20,967 nt of DNA from a virus. Below the pieces are notes generated by a model. It was not told the DNA's origin, made no database searches, and saw only the letters and a list, made by a program, of their open reading frames with translations. Every line of letters starts with the position of its first letter. The stretch's first letter is position 1. Positions 6,960-18,927 of this stretch are shown piece by piece. A program made the position numbers and the translations under genes. The DNA is taken from positions 1-20,967 of the IMG/VR virus record IMGVR_UViG_3300025767_000160; one strand, 5' to 3'.

Positions 6960-7985
6960 TTATGGAGTAGTTACTTGTGCTGTCGCTACGCTTTCAGCAG
7001 TGTCACTACCCTCTGTGTTAGTTTCTGTCTGTACAACCCGGAGGTACTTGCTGTCGTCACCTGCAATGATTGTGTAGGTGGCGCTTGTCTGCTCCTCAAT
7101 GTCGGCCCATTCCGTTTCTCCGTCGTCGCTAATCTGCCACTGCCAAGTGGTGTCTGGCGTTGGAGTTCCTGTTACTTCTGCGGCCTCAGCGGTCAGCTCT
7201 TCACCTACCTCAACAGTTCCTGTGATAGTAGGAACCCCATCAATTACCGGGGCGGCTGGCACTTGCTCCGTAGCAGCACTAGCCTCAAAGTCTACTCCTT
7301 CACTGTTCGTTTCTGTCTGAACAACCCGAAGGAAGTTGTTGCCGTCGGCCTCAAGTATAACATATGTGTCTTCAGTCTCGCCCTCAATGTTTGTCCACTC
7401 TGTCTCACCGTCAGCGCTATACTGCCACTGCCAAGTCGTAACGGGAATTGGAATACCATCCTTGTCTGCCGCGGTGGCTGTAATGGTCTCGCCGATAGCA
7501 ATAGTTCCGGAGATTGTAGGAATATCACTGACGACAGGCGGTACTGGCTCTGCGATAGCGTTGGTGTATCCCTTGCGTGAGAAATTAACGCCAAAGTCGC
7601 AGTAGGCCACTGTAATTACATAATCGTCTGCATCATCAATGCTGACAACTTCAATGTCCTCAAACTCTACATCCTTATCTTTCTGGAGCAGGTAATCTTG
7701 ATATTGACCAATAACAAAGATGTTCTCTTCGGTGGACAGCAGTCTAGCACGAGCATCTCCCGCAACCGTCTTATCCATTACGATAAGCGAGAAGTTCAGA
7801 CGGAAAGTAGGTCTGTTCAACTCACGGGAGATGTTGGAGCTAGAGACCACCAACTGCATACTGCGGTATTCAAACTCAACACTACCGATTTCCTCTTCTG
7901 AGCCAAGAACGCCGAACTCCGAAATCATACGGTGTCGCTCGGCAAACTCGGTAGTAATGTCGTAAAGTTGAAGCAGGTTGTTCAT
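6960..7985 (-). CDS. Tail-region protein with two C-terminal Ig-like domains, 341 aa
   Basis: Residues 1-145 form an alpha/beta domain (MNNLLQLYDITTEFAERHRM, then FRLNFSLIVMDKTV, then FVIGQYQDYLLQK). It resembles small tail-terminator or tail-completion proteins of Bacteroidetes phages, in which a strand ending 'VMDxV' is followed by a long helix. Residues about 156-242 and 252-338 are two tandem Ig-like (beta-sandwich) repeats with a 96-residue period. Both carry TTWQWQ, DGETEW and FLRVVQTETN / YLRVVQTETN. Such domains commonly decorate tail or capsid surfaces and are thought to bind surface glycans. A tail-tube identity is also possible, because no other tube candidate is present in the window. 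The gene is followed after 10 nt by the zinc-ribbon gene and preceded by a 23-nt gap. Confidence 0.87.
   Translation of the reverse strand: MNNLLQLYDITTEFAERHRMISEFGVLGSEEEIGSVEFEYRSMQLVVSSSNISRELNRPTFRLNFSLIVMDKTVAGDARARLLSTEENIFVIGQYQDYLLQKDKDVEFEDIEVVSIDDADDYVITVAYCDFGVNFSRKGYTNAIAEPVPPVVSDIPTISGTIAIGETITATAADKDGIPIPVTTWQWQYSADGETEWTNIEGETEDTYVILEADGNNFLRVVQTETNSEGVDFEASAATEQVPAAPVIDGVPTITGTVEVGEELTAEAAEVTGTPTPDTTWQWQISDDGETEWADIEEQTSATYTIIAGDDSKYLRVVQTETNTEGSDTAESVATAQVTTP
6972..7520 (-). repeat. Tandem duplication encoding the two Ig-like domains
   Basis: Two copies, about 7260-7520 and 6972-7232, encode the paired Ig-like domains with a 288-nt period. DNA identity is also visible, for example gtttctgtctg followed by acaacccg at 7022-7039 and again at 7310-7327. 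Silent differences exist, so the duplication is not brand new. Confidence 0.75.
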
Positions 7986-14674: not shown

Positions 14675-14944
14675 ATGAAAAACACACAAACACTTCAGAC
14701 CATAAAGAGCCACCTGGCAAGTACGGGTCAGTTCTTTAGCATTAAGTTCATTAAGTTGGACGGAACCGAGCGAAGCCTTACGGGTCGTTTCGGTGTACAC
14801 AAACACGTAAAGGGTGGGGTTAGTTGCCTTAACGATAACAACTGGAACTTCTTTGATGTGAAGGACGGCTACCGCTCCGTGAGGGTAGAATCCATCGTTG
14901 AGGTAACTTATGATGGCGTGACCATTTTATCTGACTACAAATGA
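14675..14944 (+). CDS. SH3-barrel-like small phage protein, 89 aa
   Basis: Starts MKNTQTLQTIKSHLASTGQF. The core reads FSIKFIKLDGTERSLTGRFG, VHKHVKGG, then FFDVKDGYRSVRVESIVEVT. This 'F.v.FiK.DG..R.l.gR.gV.k.vkGG......dv..GYR.i....I' pattern is a family I know from phages, predicted as an SH3-type beta-barrel of unknown role, possibly nucleic-acid contact. It directly follows a strong promoter and overlaps the methyltransferase start as ATGA, so the two are cotranscribed and likely co-translated. It could assist modification, but that is context only. Confidence 0.82.
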   Translation: MKNTQTLQTIKSHLASTGQFFSIKFIKLDGTERSLTGRFGVHKHVKGGVSCLNDNNWNFFDVKDGYRSVRVESIVEVTYDGVTILSDYK

Positions 14945-16077
14945 AAATAAATCAATTAGACCTCTTTTCAGGAATAGGCGGATTTCATCTTGGATTTGAG
15001 AAAGCCGGTTACAAAGTGACTAGCTTTTTCTCCGAGGTGGACAAGCACGCCATCGCAGTTTACAAACAACAATTTAAAAATTCAACTTATGTCGGCTCAG
15101 TTACAGATGTTCGGGGGGAAGACCTCCCAAGAATCGACCTTATCACCTTCGGAAGCCCTTGCCAAGACTTCAGCCTTGCTGGAAAGCGTAAAGGAATGGA
15201 TGGGGACAGAAGCAGCCTTATCCTTGAAGCAATTCGCCTCATTGGGGAATGCAGACCAAGAGTATTTGTGTGGGAAAACGTTAAAGGAACTTTCTCCTCA
15301 AACTCTGGCGAAGATTTTGCGGCAATCATCCAAGCGTTTGCCAACATTGGGGGCTATAGACTTGAATGGCAACTGCTTAATACATCGTGGTTTCTACCCC
15401 AAAATAGAGAGCGAATATACCTTGTCGGATATTCTACAGAAACAAAACGAGATTGGCGAGGAGTATTTCCTATCGGAGAAAGTAACCCAAAGATTGATGA
15501 GTTACAAAGACAACACCTACCAGCAAATACAATCCTACAGCGATACGATGCCGGAGCAAACGGAACTTATATCGGTGAATGTAAACAGTCTGCACAAGCG
15601 GTAAAGCAAATCGGAACTAAACTTGATTCTAATGGTGGAACGCAACCCTATCAACAGGACCGAGTGTACGATGCGGATGGAATTGTCCCTGCCTTGAACC
15701 AAGGTAAGAGTGACTTGATAATCAAAGCTAATTATTCAAGCAAGTCTCTGAACGAAACAATAGAGAACAATATACTTGTAGAGGGAGAGCCAAAAGCACT
15801 TGACCTATACAATCGTTCAGCAAGGGATGAATCACCGACTCTTACAGAGCCGCACCATAATTCACTTCGTATGTTTGATGGATACAGAATACGGAGATTA
15901 ACCCCCATTGAGTGTGAAAGACTGCAAGGATTCCCAGATGACCACACATCACTTGGTAACTACGATGGTGAGGTAAAATCAATGAGCAACGCGCAACGAT
16001 ACAAGCAATGCGGTAACGCGGTAACTGTTGATGTTGTCAAGGCCGTTGCGGAACGATGTAAACCATTATTCAAATGA
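14941..16077 (+). CDS. DNA (cytosine-5) methyltransferase
   Basis: A 378-aa enzyme that transfers a methyl group from S-adenosylmethionine to carbon 5 of cytosine in phage DNA. Conserved motifs appear in order: I DLFSGIGGFHLGF (residues 7-19), IV GSPCQDFS (71-78, catalytic Cys74), VI WENVKG (111-116), VIII QNRERIYLVG (154-163), IX RRLTPIECERLQGFPDD (about 318-334), and X GNAVTVDVV (from about 358). The span 165-315 is the variable, target-recognising region. All catalytic elements are present, so activity is expected. The target cannot be read from sequence. No cognate restriction gene is nearby, so it is probably an orphan that protects phage DNA from host restriction. Both ends overlap neighbours as ATGA. 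A second open frame lies inside it (15089-15604). Confidence 0.97.
   Translation: MKINQLDLFSGIGGFHLGFEKAGYKVTSFFSEVDKHAIAVYKQQFKNSTYVGSVTDVRGEDLPRIDLITFGSPCQDFSLAGKRKGMDGDRSSLILEAIRLIGECRPRVFVWENVKGTFSSNSGEDFAAIIQAFANIGGYRLEWQLLNTSWFLPQNRERIYLVGYSTETKRDWRGVFPIGESNPKIDELQRQHLPANTILQRYDAGANGTYIGECKQSAQAVKQIGTKLDSNGGTQPYQQDRVYDADGIVPALNQGKSDLIIKANYSSKSLNETIENNILVEGEPKALDLYNRSARDESPTLTEPHHNSLRMFDGYRIRRLTPIECERLQGFPDDHTSLGNYDGEVKSMSNAQRYKQCGNAVTVDVVKAVAERCKPLFK
15089..15604 (+). CDS. Nested out-of-frame ORF inside the methyltransferase gene, 171 aa
   Basis: In the +1 frame relative to the methyltransferase, covering its residues about 50-221 (motifs IV to VIII), an ATG-initiated frame of 171 codons is open to a TAA. 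The ATG follows the A/T-rich run aaattcaactt. The product starts MSAQLQMFGGKTSQESTLSP, has LNGNCLIHRGFYPKIESEYT in the middle, then LSDILQK and EEYFLSEKVTQRLMSYK. The MFGGKTSxES start and the 'LSxIL...YFLSxKA'-like end match, in my recollection, a family of phage proteins of unknown function annotated beside or within cytosine methyltransferase genes. The methyltransferase frame is intact, so this would be a dual-coding region. Chance openness is the alternative, and long shadow frames do occur elsewhere in this window. Confidence 0.5.
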   Translation: MSAQLQMFGGKTSQESTLSPSEALAKTSALLESVKEWMGTEAALSLKQFASLGNADQEYLCGKTLKELSPQTLAKILRQSSKRLPTLGAIDLNGNCLIHRGFYPKIESEYTLSDILQKQNEIGEEYFLSEKVTQRLMSYKDNTYQQIQSYSDTMPEQTELISVNVNSLHKR

Positions 16078-16472: not shown

Positions 16473-16483
16473 TTAGTCAGTGT

Positions 16484-16548
16484 ACTATTATAGTAACTAT
16501 ACTATAATAGTAACTATAGTTCCTTACGGAACTATATATAATAGTAAC
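16484..16548. repeat. Dyad array upstream of the DnaA-like gene
   Basis: ACTATTATAGTAAC (16484-16497), ACTATAATAGTAAC (16501-16514) and TATAATAGTAAC (16537-16548) repeat the elements at 10728-10814. A perfect 9-bp hairpin lies between them (TATAGTTCC 16515-16523, loop TTAC, GGAACTATA 16528-16536). The array ends 6 nt before the ATG at 16555, so a bound protein would block expression of the following gene. It is a candidate operator or iteron set. Confidence 0.75.
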
Positions 16549-16554
16549 TATAGT

Positions 16555-17013
16555 ATGAAAAAAGAAATACACAATCTCATCATCGCAGAAAAGTTTGCTG
16601 CGGAGCTCTACGCTAACACGGGTATTGATTTGGCTAACTCAAGCCGTACCCAAGTTTACTCTATGTATAGGCAAGCGTTCATCCACTTATGTTCAACGAA
16701 GTTGGGTATTCGCAATACGGACGTGGCCGGAATCATTAACCGGGACCACTCAAGTGTTGTGCATTCACTCAAGAAGGCATACACCCTATTGGATTATGAC
16801 GACAAGTTGTTCATTGATTACTACGAGAGGGCGAAGGATGCCTTAAACTCCGTTCGGTATGGCGATGACTCATACACGACCACTATGGGTCACAGTATGA
16901 ACATCAATGACCTCATCCGCTCCTATTTGATTGAGCACAAGATTGAGGGTGCGCGATTGAATCAGGTACTGCAACAACTAACCCATAACATTAAAATAAA
17001 TCGCTATGCCTAA
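16555..17013 (+). CDS. DnaA domain-IV-like DNA-binding protein, 152 aa
   Basis: The start is at ATG 16555; an in-frame GTG at 16480 would only translate the repeat array (MYYYSNYTIIVTIV), so it is rejected. The core, SSRTQVYSMYRQAFIHLCST followed by IINRDHSSVVHSLKKAYTLL (residues 29-79), matches the C-terminal DNA-binding domain of the replication initiator DnaA. RDHSSVVHS is the counterpart of the 'RDHTTVLHA' signature that reads the DnaA box. No AAA+ ATPase domain is present, so it is a stand-alone binding module with an extra helical C-terminus. Likely roles are origin recognition, competition with host DnaA, or autoregulation through the dyads just upstream. The last 8 nt overlap the next gene. 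Confidence 0.8.
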   Translation: MKKEIHNLIIAEKFAAELYANTGIDLANSSRTQVYSMYRQAFIHLCSTKLGIRNTDVAGIINRDHSSVVHSLKKAYTLLDYDDKLFIDYYERAKDALNSVRYGDDSYTTTMGHSMNINDLIRSYLIEHKIEGARLNQVLQQLTHNIKINRYA

Positions 17014-17805: not shown

Positions 17806-18548
17806 TGTTTTACTCCGACGAAGAATACTATGCAGACCGCGAGTTCTTAACGAACTCCTCTCTGAAGTTGCTACACAAGTCTCCGGTTCAGTTCTATCAG
17901 TGGCTGACGAATACGAGTGGCAACCAAAGCACAGCAGCATTAGAGATAGGCAAGGCGTTCCACGCCTTGTGCCTGGAAGACATAGTAAGCTTTGTTGGTT
18001 ACGATGGTACTCGCAGAGGTAAAGACTACCTTGAGTTTTGTGAGCAGAATGATGATAAAATCGTGCTGTCCAAGAAGGATGCGGATATGATTTATGCTAT
18101 GCAGAGCGTTCTTATGAAGACCCCTCAGGTCGTAGAACTAATGTATAGCAAGGATGATGTTCAACTCACGGAACTCCCTGCGATATCTGAATGGGATGGA
18201 ATTAAAATCAAGGGCAAGGCAGATATGGTGGTTGAAAAAGACTTTCAGCCAGCATACATAGTTGACCTTAAAACTACGGGCGGAACGCTTGAGGAATTTC
18301 GTAGGAGCGCAAAGTATATGCACTACGACCAACAAGCCGCCATATATTGCAAACTGTTTGAGGTTGATACCTTCTACTTTGTAGCGATAACAAAGAGCTA
18401 TCCGTATGAGGTAGGCATTTATAAATGTTCACAACAGTTCATACAGCAGGGTGCTATCAAAGCCCAGGAGGCGATTGATAAGTACCGCAGGTTGTTCTTG
18501 GGCAAACAATTCAATCCATATGACGCATCAGAAATCGGTATCCTTTGA
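17805..18548 (+). CDS. RecE-like PD-(D/E)XK exonuclease
   Basis: A 247-aa nuclease that would resect double-stranded ends to give the single strands used by the annealing protein. Visible motifs: SSLKLLHKSPVQFYQWL (18-34), GKAFHALCLE (49-58, conserved His), E128 in PAISEWDGIKIKGKADMVVE with GKAD at 137-140, catalytic DLKTTGG at 154-160 (Asp154, Lys156), and YDQQAAIYCKLF (from 174). This is the RecE C-terminal / Cas4-like layout. All metal-binding and lysine positions are present. It starts on the stop of the preceding gene (TAATG) and its last 29 nt overlap the second DnaA-like gene. Confidence 0.93.
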   Translation: MFYSDEEYYADREFLTNSSLKLLHKSPVQFYQWLTNTSGNQSTAALEIGKAFHALCLEDIVSFVGYDGTRRGKDYLEFCEQNDDKIVLSKKDADMIYAMQSVLMKTPQVVELMYSKDDVQLTELPAISEWDGIKIKGKADMVVEKDFQPAYIVDLKTTGGTLEEFRRSAKYMHYDQQAAIYCKLFEVDTFYFVAITKSYPYEVGIYKCSQQFIQQGAIKAQEAIDKYRRLFLGKQFNPYDASEIGIL

Positions 18549-18927
18549 TGAGTTCACTCGCAATGTAATAGACATTGCTTGTTCTCACGCAGCGATACAC
18601 CCATCAGAGCTGTTCTCCTCAAAGAGAAAAGATGTAGTGAATGTGCGCAGTATTATTTCCGTAATCTTACGAGAGAACGGAAGTACCTACCAGGCCATCG
18701 CTGACATATTAAGTGTTGACGTAAGGAACACTCACTCGTATGTTATGGGACACGATAACAGAATGGCAGACAAGAAGTATTCATCGTTATTTAAAAGTGT
18801 TCAACGGAGTATGAACGACGTTGAGTCAATTAGTGACGACATACATCTATCAATAACAAATCTCCTGGTCCGGCTGGAGAAACTTGAGAGCCGGGTAAAT
18901 CATTTAACTCATCTATTAACAGCGTAG
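18520..18927 (+). CDS. Second DnaA domain-IV-like protein with coiled-coil tail, 135 aa
   Basis: The start is at ATG 18520 (MTHQKSVSFDEFTRNVIDIA), overlapping the nuclease gene by 29 nt; an earlier frame start at 18451 is unlikely. Residues 34-80, SKRKDVVNVRSIISVILREN, then STYQAIADILSVDVRNTHSY and VMGHDN, follow the DnaA C-terminal fold: 'RK..vv..R.ii...lr......IA..l..d...hhsyV.H'. The signature differs from the first copy (NTHSYVMGH in place of RDHSSVVHS), so target specificity may differ. The remaining 50 residues form a heptad-like coiled coil (LSITNLLVRLEKLESRVNHL), suggesting a dimer. No ATPase domain. Two such modules in one genome segment is unusual. Confidence 0.75.
   Translation: MTHQKSVSFDEFTRNVIDIACSHAAIHPSELFSSKRKDVVNVRSIISVILRENGSTYQAIADILSVDVRNTHSYVMGHDNRMADKKYSSLFKSVQRSMNDVESISDDIHLSITNLLVRLEKLESRVNHLTHLLTA

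Follow-up and report, generated by a model that had tools for sequence, protein, structure and literature searches.

The DNA analysed here, referred to as the window, is a virus contig of 20,967 bases (IMG/VR record IMGVR_UViG_3300025767_000160). Its plus strand carries the gene of a C5-cytosine methyltransferase (MTase), within which a second, ATG-started open reading frame occupies MTase codons 50-220 in the +1 frame. The features of the locus are as follows.

14941-16077, plus strand: C5-cytosine MTase, 378 aa (open reading frame; PF00145, E 8e-70; PDB relatives; AlphaFold2 and Foldseek)
~14959-14985, plus strand: motif I of the MTase (frame 0)
15157-15165, plus strand: PCQ of motif IV (frame 0)
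15274-15282, plus strand: ENV of motif VI (frame 0)
15400-15429, plus strand: motif VIII (frame 0), with QNRER at 15400
15895-15939, plus strand: motif IX (frame 0)
16000-16029, plus strand: motif X (frame 0)
15069-15091, plus strand: translation start region of the nested gene, AT-rich and weakly structured, with the ATG at 15089-15091
15089-15604, plus strand: nested +1 gene, 171 aa, PHROG 16143 family, proposed second MTase subunit (open reading frame, no +1 stops in relatives, synonymous constraint)
15098-15112, plus strand: nested residues QLQMF, a hypothetical sliding-clamp-like pentapeptide (N-terminal pattern count)
15392-15502, plus strand: nested residues ~102-138 (FYPKIESEYTLSDILQKQNEIGEEYFLSEKVTQRLM), putative displaced element (hhalign, shuffle and deletion controls, +1 identity above frame 0)
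15076-15480, plus strand: zone of strong synonymous constraint in the MTase frame, codons ~46-180 (third-base identity)

The MTase has what is expected of a PF00145 large chain, namely motifs I, IV, VI, VIII, IX and X and the PCQ catalytic loop; motif IX (RLTPIECERLQGFPD) is located in this chain, as is motif X. Its structural relatives in the PDB are M.HaeIII and M.HhaI, and the Foldseek match of its AlphaFold2 model is M.HhaI. The large domain of the model is confident, and residues 182-261, directly past motif VIII, mostly have a pLDDT <50. A preliminary description made from the letters alone had reported a 171-codon +1 frame across motifs IV-VIII with an AT-rich start context. The ORF coordinates confirm the frame, the motifs do lie inside it (PCQ 15157, ENV 15274, QNRER 15400), and the AT fraction of the start context is 0.69 vs 0.56 for the rest of the gene. 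The MTase gene also contains an antisense ORF of 86 aa (15087-15347, minus strand), and an 88-codon antisense open stretch recurs in many relatives; this ORF is probably a by-product of codons fixed by the overlap.

Coding status of the +1 frame

The MTase protein served as the sole query for relatives, which were hence not selected for the nested frame. In all of them the +1 frame stays free of stops at the corresponding position for some 150-220 codons, with a few contigs cut by their ends, and the +2 frame for at most 76 codons. Over MTase codons 50-180, not one of the 62 distinct MTases has a +1 stop, where 8.4 per sequence would be expected if the same protein were recoded synonymously with pooled codon usage; in the +2 control frame 7.4 stops were observed vs 8.2 expected. 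Under a stricter null, which permutes only the codons present, the median P per sequence was 0.024 for +1 and 0.49 for +2. Stops in +1 are also absent from 69/70 members of a Streptococcus MM1-like clade and from 75/78 members of a P1/Vibrio Dmt-like clade, both lying outside the clade of the window. Relatives share descent and the counts are therefore not independent; the three clades agree, however.

Synonymous variation is depressed across the overlap. In sequence pairs with 50-75% protein identity, third-base identity at conserved 4-fold residues was 0.60-0.91 inside codons 51-185 vs 0.25-0.43 outside, where synonymous sites are near saturation and the flanks of the same gene are without constraint. 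A finer profile has the constraint rising in the 9-codon bin that holds the nested ATG and dropping past codon 180. At codons 166-185 of the window clade, MTase-frame identity is 0.44-0.57 and third-base identity 0.80-0.87; for the nested C-terminal segment the corresponding values are 0.36-0.41 and 0.89-0.92 in the Streptococcus MM1-like clade, and 0.35-0.55 and 0.92 in the P1/Vibrio Dmt-like clade. Amino-acid identity at the nested C-terminus is highest in the +1 frame in all three clades (+1/0/+2: 0.72/0.51/0.50 in the window clade, 0.53/0.39/0.34 in the MM1-like and 0.63/0.45/0.40 in the P1/Vibrio Dmt-like clade).

The nested ATG is retained in 62/62 members of the window clade, and the energy of the start region is -1.99 kcal/mol vs -5.30 for the rest of the gene and -4.38 for synonymous recodings. 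There is no Shine-Dalgarno motif ahead of the nested ATG in the window, an absence that is usual in Bacteroidota. The small protein would be made by internal initiation at this AT-rich ATG. Streptococcal nested ORFs do have a Shine-Dalgarno site, such as AAAGGAG ahead of the ATG in MM1; selection for these sites in the streptococcal clade was considered and dropped, the sites being no better than synonymous recoding of the MTase residues gives.

Length alone, as the preliminary description had remarked, does not exclude that the +1 frame is open by chance. Chance is, however, ruled out by the absence of +1 stops in the 62 relatives chosen by their MTase and in the two outside clades, and it is contradicted by an open frame combined with constraint in three divergent clades, by the overlap with an MTase at every family locus, and by the full length of the nested ORF of P1 dmt in 519/531 plasmid matches, so that we regard its probability as negligible. 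It could further be argued that the open frame and the constraint are due to RNA structure, a DNA signal or codon bias of the MTase and not to a protein, as third-base constraint by itself does not identify its cause. This explanation, which we hold to be highly improbable, is already largely contradicted: stops are avoided in +1 only and not in +2, the protein read in +1 is similar to a segment known from MTases, local structure at the nested start is reduced and not increased, and the constraint is lacking in the flanks of the same gene. To judge from these comparisons, the nested ORF 15089-15604 is a real reading frame and almost certainly codes for a protein. The computational checks named in the preliminary description, which were +1 stops in close relatives (none, 62/62), synonymous variation, and conservation beyond what the MTase frame explains (third-base constraint and the lead of +1 in identity), thus all came out in favor of its suggestion that one DNA stretch encodes an enzyme and a second conserved protein. 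Of that suggestion the dual coding is supported; the second protein is most likely part of the MTase and not unrelated to it.

The segment after motif VIII and a possible second subunit

The conserved C-terminus of the nested protein (FYPK..YTLSDIL...EEYFLSEK; residues ~102-138) is similar to the stretch found after motif VIII in ordinary C5-MTases, of which FKFPKPKKVDLSIRDILEPKVDDKYTLSDKLWNYL is an example. The two were matched by hhalign with a probability of 91% (E 1.2e-6), and a second, overlapping sequence set gave the same profile match at E 2.2e-6. The real score of 49.9 compares with at most 23.7 in 100 column shuffles, 13.4 for the reversed profile and 17.9 after removal of the element columns, and no similarity was seen between the nested profile and the MTases of its own class (E 0.44). 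In a survey of 360 MTase ORFs with a motif model built from nested proteins only, 280 had the element in +1, 10 had it in frame 0, 70 had it in neither and none had it in both. Phocaeicola phage BV739P1, at 38 bits, and Streptococcus phage Javan117, at 35 bits, provide two clear in-frame examples. Since 70 of the surveyed MTases show the element in neither frame, it may be dispensable in some C5-MTases. As shown by comparison, the nested C-terminus is the counterpart of the stretch lying between motif VIII and the target-recognition domain (TRD), and the overlapping MTase chain is without that segment in its own frame; at the level of sequence only, the second chain holds the piece missing from the first, as in a two-subunit C5-MTase. 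GH[LF] or GYS in the MTase frame reads as DIL in +1. A frame-changing deletion just past motif VIII has probably moved the segment to the +1 frame, where an internally started ORF would have kept it.

We propose that 15089-15604 is a second, fully nested +1 gene in a phage C5-MTase gene and that its product is, with reasonable probability, a second subunit of the same enzyme. The nested protein would dock on the MTase at the place usually taken by the covalent post-VIII segment and so complete the junction of catalytic domain and TRD. This proposal fits because C5-MTases split between VIII and the TRD reassemble (PMC3404938, PMC5944983), because the two parts form a single chain in one natural case, and because the nested protein is poorly modelled alone. 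The natural case is Lactococcus reticulitermitis (L182 3626-5071), in which a sequencing error is possible: its nested frame, which has QLTLF near the start, measures 482 codons from stop to stop and extends uninterrupted across TRD, IX and X. The C-terminal half of the MTase thereby belongs to the same chain as the nested protein, and the MTase frame retains motifs I-VIII only. When modelled alone the nested protein has a pLDDT of 49, which made the predicted fold unusable; such low confidence weighs against the proposal but could also be that of an obligate partner. The low pLDDT of the MTase model directly past motif VIII speaks for the proposal.

Near the N-terminus, many nested proteins carry a pentapeptide resembling the sliding-clamp motif of bacteria, for instance QLQMF (window), QLDLF (Mycobacterium phage Dallas) and QLSLF (Lactococcus phage 4268). 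A QL[SD]LF-like pattern was counted in 88/127 nested proteins vs 3/654 other windows, counts that partly reflect shared descent, and the motif is absent in 39/127 family members. We hypothesize that the nested N-terminus binds the sliding clamp. In many lineages the QLQMF-type motif would then tether the enzyme to the clamp, and new phage DNA would be methylated at the fork.

The clamp-like motif, the lack of an assigned role for the N-terminal two thirds of the nested protein and the prediction that this protein is mostly unstructured would also suit a true gene whose product does not belong to the enzyme structurally but is a separate effector (a regulator or inhibitor of the MTase, a clamp-binding protein or an anti-restriction factor). 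We consider such an effector rather unlikely, as its C-terminal element is precisely what the MTase lacks and no family member was found away from an MTase. Much less likely still is that programmed ribosomal frameshifting joins the two frames, the +1 frame being the tail of an MTase fragment and not separately started. The continuation of the +1 frame into TRD, IX and X in L182 would agree with frameshifting, as would the indel that swaps the two frames in Faecalibacterium phages and L187. Against it stand the ATG kept throughout the window clade with reduced local structure, the constraint that begins at this ATG, and the overlap of LSDIL with motif VIII on the DNA, by which a shift could not yield both whole. 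If the second-subunit proposal is extended to the whole family, an ancient class of phage C5-MTases, including that of P1, might be a two-gene enzyme encoded on one DNA stretch, in which the post-VIII segment was displaced to +1 by a frameshift, is supplied in trans and, in many lineages, carries a clamp-binding tail by which methylation is coupled to replication. We offer this extension tentatively, as a possibility somewhat short of an even chance.

Distribution of the nested family

The nested protein of the window matches PHROG 16143 over residues 1-136 (E 5.3e-13), a family labelled 'DNA methyltransferase' that was matched by 23/23 members of a diverse nested set. No family in Pfam or NCBIfam was above cut-off for the nested protein, no solved structures of the nested family were found, and phrog_1008, as a longer relative, gave one match in 119 genomes. 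Bacteroidota, Bacillota and Pseudomonadota genomes or prophages contain nested homologues, as do bins labelled Fermentibacteria, Cloacimonadota, Neomarinimicrobiota and archaea, and viruses of Mycobacterium, Caulobacter, Roseobacter, Vibrio, Clostridioides, Lactobacillus and Methanobacterium. The family always overlaps an MTase (58/58 genome loci, 45/45 and 66/66 viral-contig loci); homologues without an overlapping MTase, for which the preliminary description had suggested a search, did not turn up among these loci. Conversely, there was no nested ORF in 60 MTase loci of randomly drawn Bacillota, Bacteroidota and Pseudomonadota genomes. The nested ORF looks like a phage or prophage feature that is always tied to the MTase. 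In a tree of the catalytic part nearly all nested MTases fall in one larger group, which includes some in-frame MTases; the tree is compatible with one or more origins of the nested arrangement, a single origin being neither shown nor excluded.

Several members have altered frames. In the Faecalibacterium phages Lelie (L256) and FP_Toutatis (L383), and in L187, an indel, located near a run of G in Lelie and FP_Toutatis, swaps the MTase and nested frames; the swap may be a sequencing error or phase variation. In Mycobacterium phage Thibault (L381 1344-3145) both frames are interrupted by the insertion of an HNH endonuclease gene into the MTase gene.

Relation to known overlapping and split methyltransferases

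The closest known arrangement is that of Streptococcus phage MM1, where ORF14, annotated within ORF13, is a homologue of the nested ORF. The MM1-type pair (PHROG 16143) resembles the window in being fully nested in a C5-MTase gene, in the +1 frame over motifs IV-VIII, with a homologous protein, and its clade has the same constraint pattern. The window differs in belonging to a Bacteroidota-type phage clade, in having no Shine-Dalgarno site and in the longer C-terminal tail of its nested protein. In the accessible part of PMC5601072, the total overlap of the two MTase frames in phages of the S. thermophilus 5093 group is called 'a striking feature', MM1 and, earlier, Tn5252 are cited, and no function is given for the small protein; 'beta subunit' names in records are annotations. 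The preliminary description had likened the start and end of the nested protein to phage proteins that are annotated inside cytosine MTase genes or close to them, and PHROG 16143, MM1 ORF14 and PMC5601072 bear this out.

The small gene of M.EcoHK31I is nested in another frame. According to PMC3404938, this is a natural two-protein C5-MTase with a large and a small chain, both said to be needed, in which motif IX is reportedly absent from the large chain and located in the small one. By this description the window is alike in having a large and a small chain and unlike in that IX and X are both in its large chain, the small chain not supplying IX. Since M.EcoHK31I as described differs in this respect, the window gene is a further member of the MM1-type overlapping pair. 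M.AquI is described in the same source as a two-polypeptide C5-MTase split after motif VIII (PMC3404938). Its second chain comprises the TRD half, IX and X, whereas the second chain of the window has the post-VIII element only; L182 alone resembles M.AquI. In Dmt of phage P1, the cytosine-MTase half carries the same nested +1 ORF (L379 3216-3686, corresponding to NC_005856.1 ~66728-67198), although the P1 record NC_005856.1 does not list this ORF as a feature. Dmt is unlike the window in being a longer bifunctional protein, and in the P1-like clade the nested N-terminus is different and its start less clear.

Total overlap was thus already known in streptococcal phages and, as cited in PMC5601072, in Tn5252. 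What we did not find in the literature open to search, from which most subscription journals are excluded, is its breadth including P1, the evidence of selection and the displaced element. The overlap is deep, selected and spread across several bacterial phyla and archaea, and includes the well-studied P1. If the proposal of a second subunit is right, an essential partner has been missing from the annotation, and perhaps from the assays, of many phage and prophage C5-MTases. Gene callers would then conceal one gene of the pair, and a protein segment would be able to switch reading frame and yet serve the same enzyme.

Elsewhere in the window, the ORFs 16480-17013 and 18451-18927 (both plus strand) resemble the DnaA DNA-binding domain (PF08299, E 3.5e-7 and 1.7e-4, neither match reaching the curated cut-off), and these two small DnaA-like proteins may belong to phage replication control. 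A virion-region protein (6960-7985, minus strand) has two similar repeats (TWQWQ.S.DGETEW..IE..T..TY), over which an antisense ORF of 201 aa is located (6975-7580).
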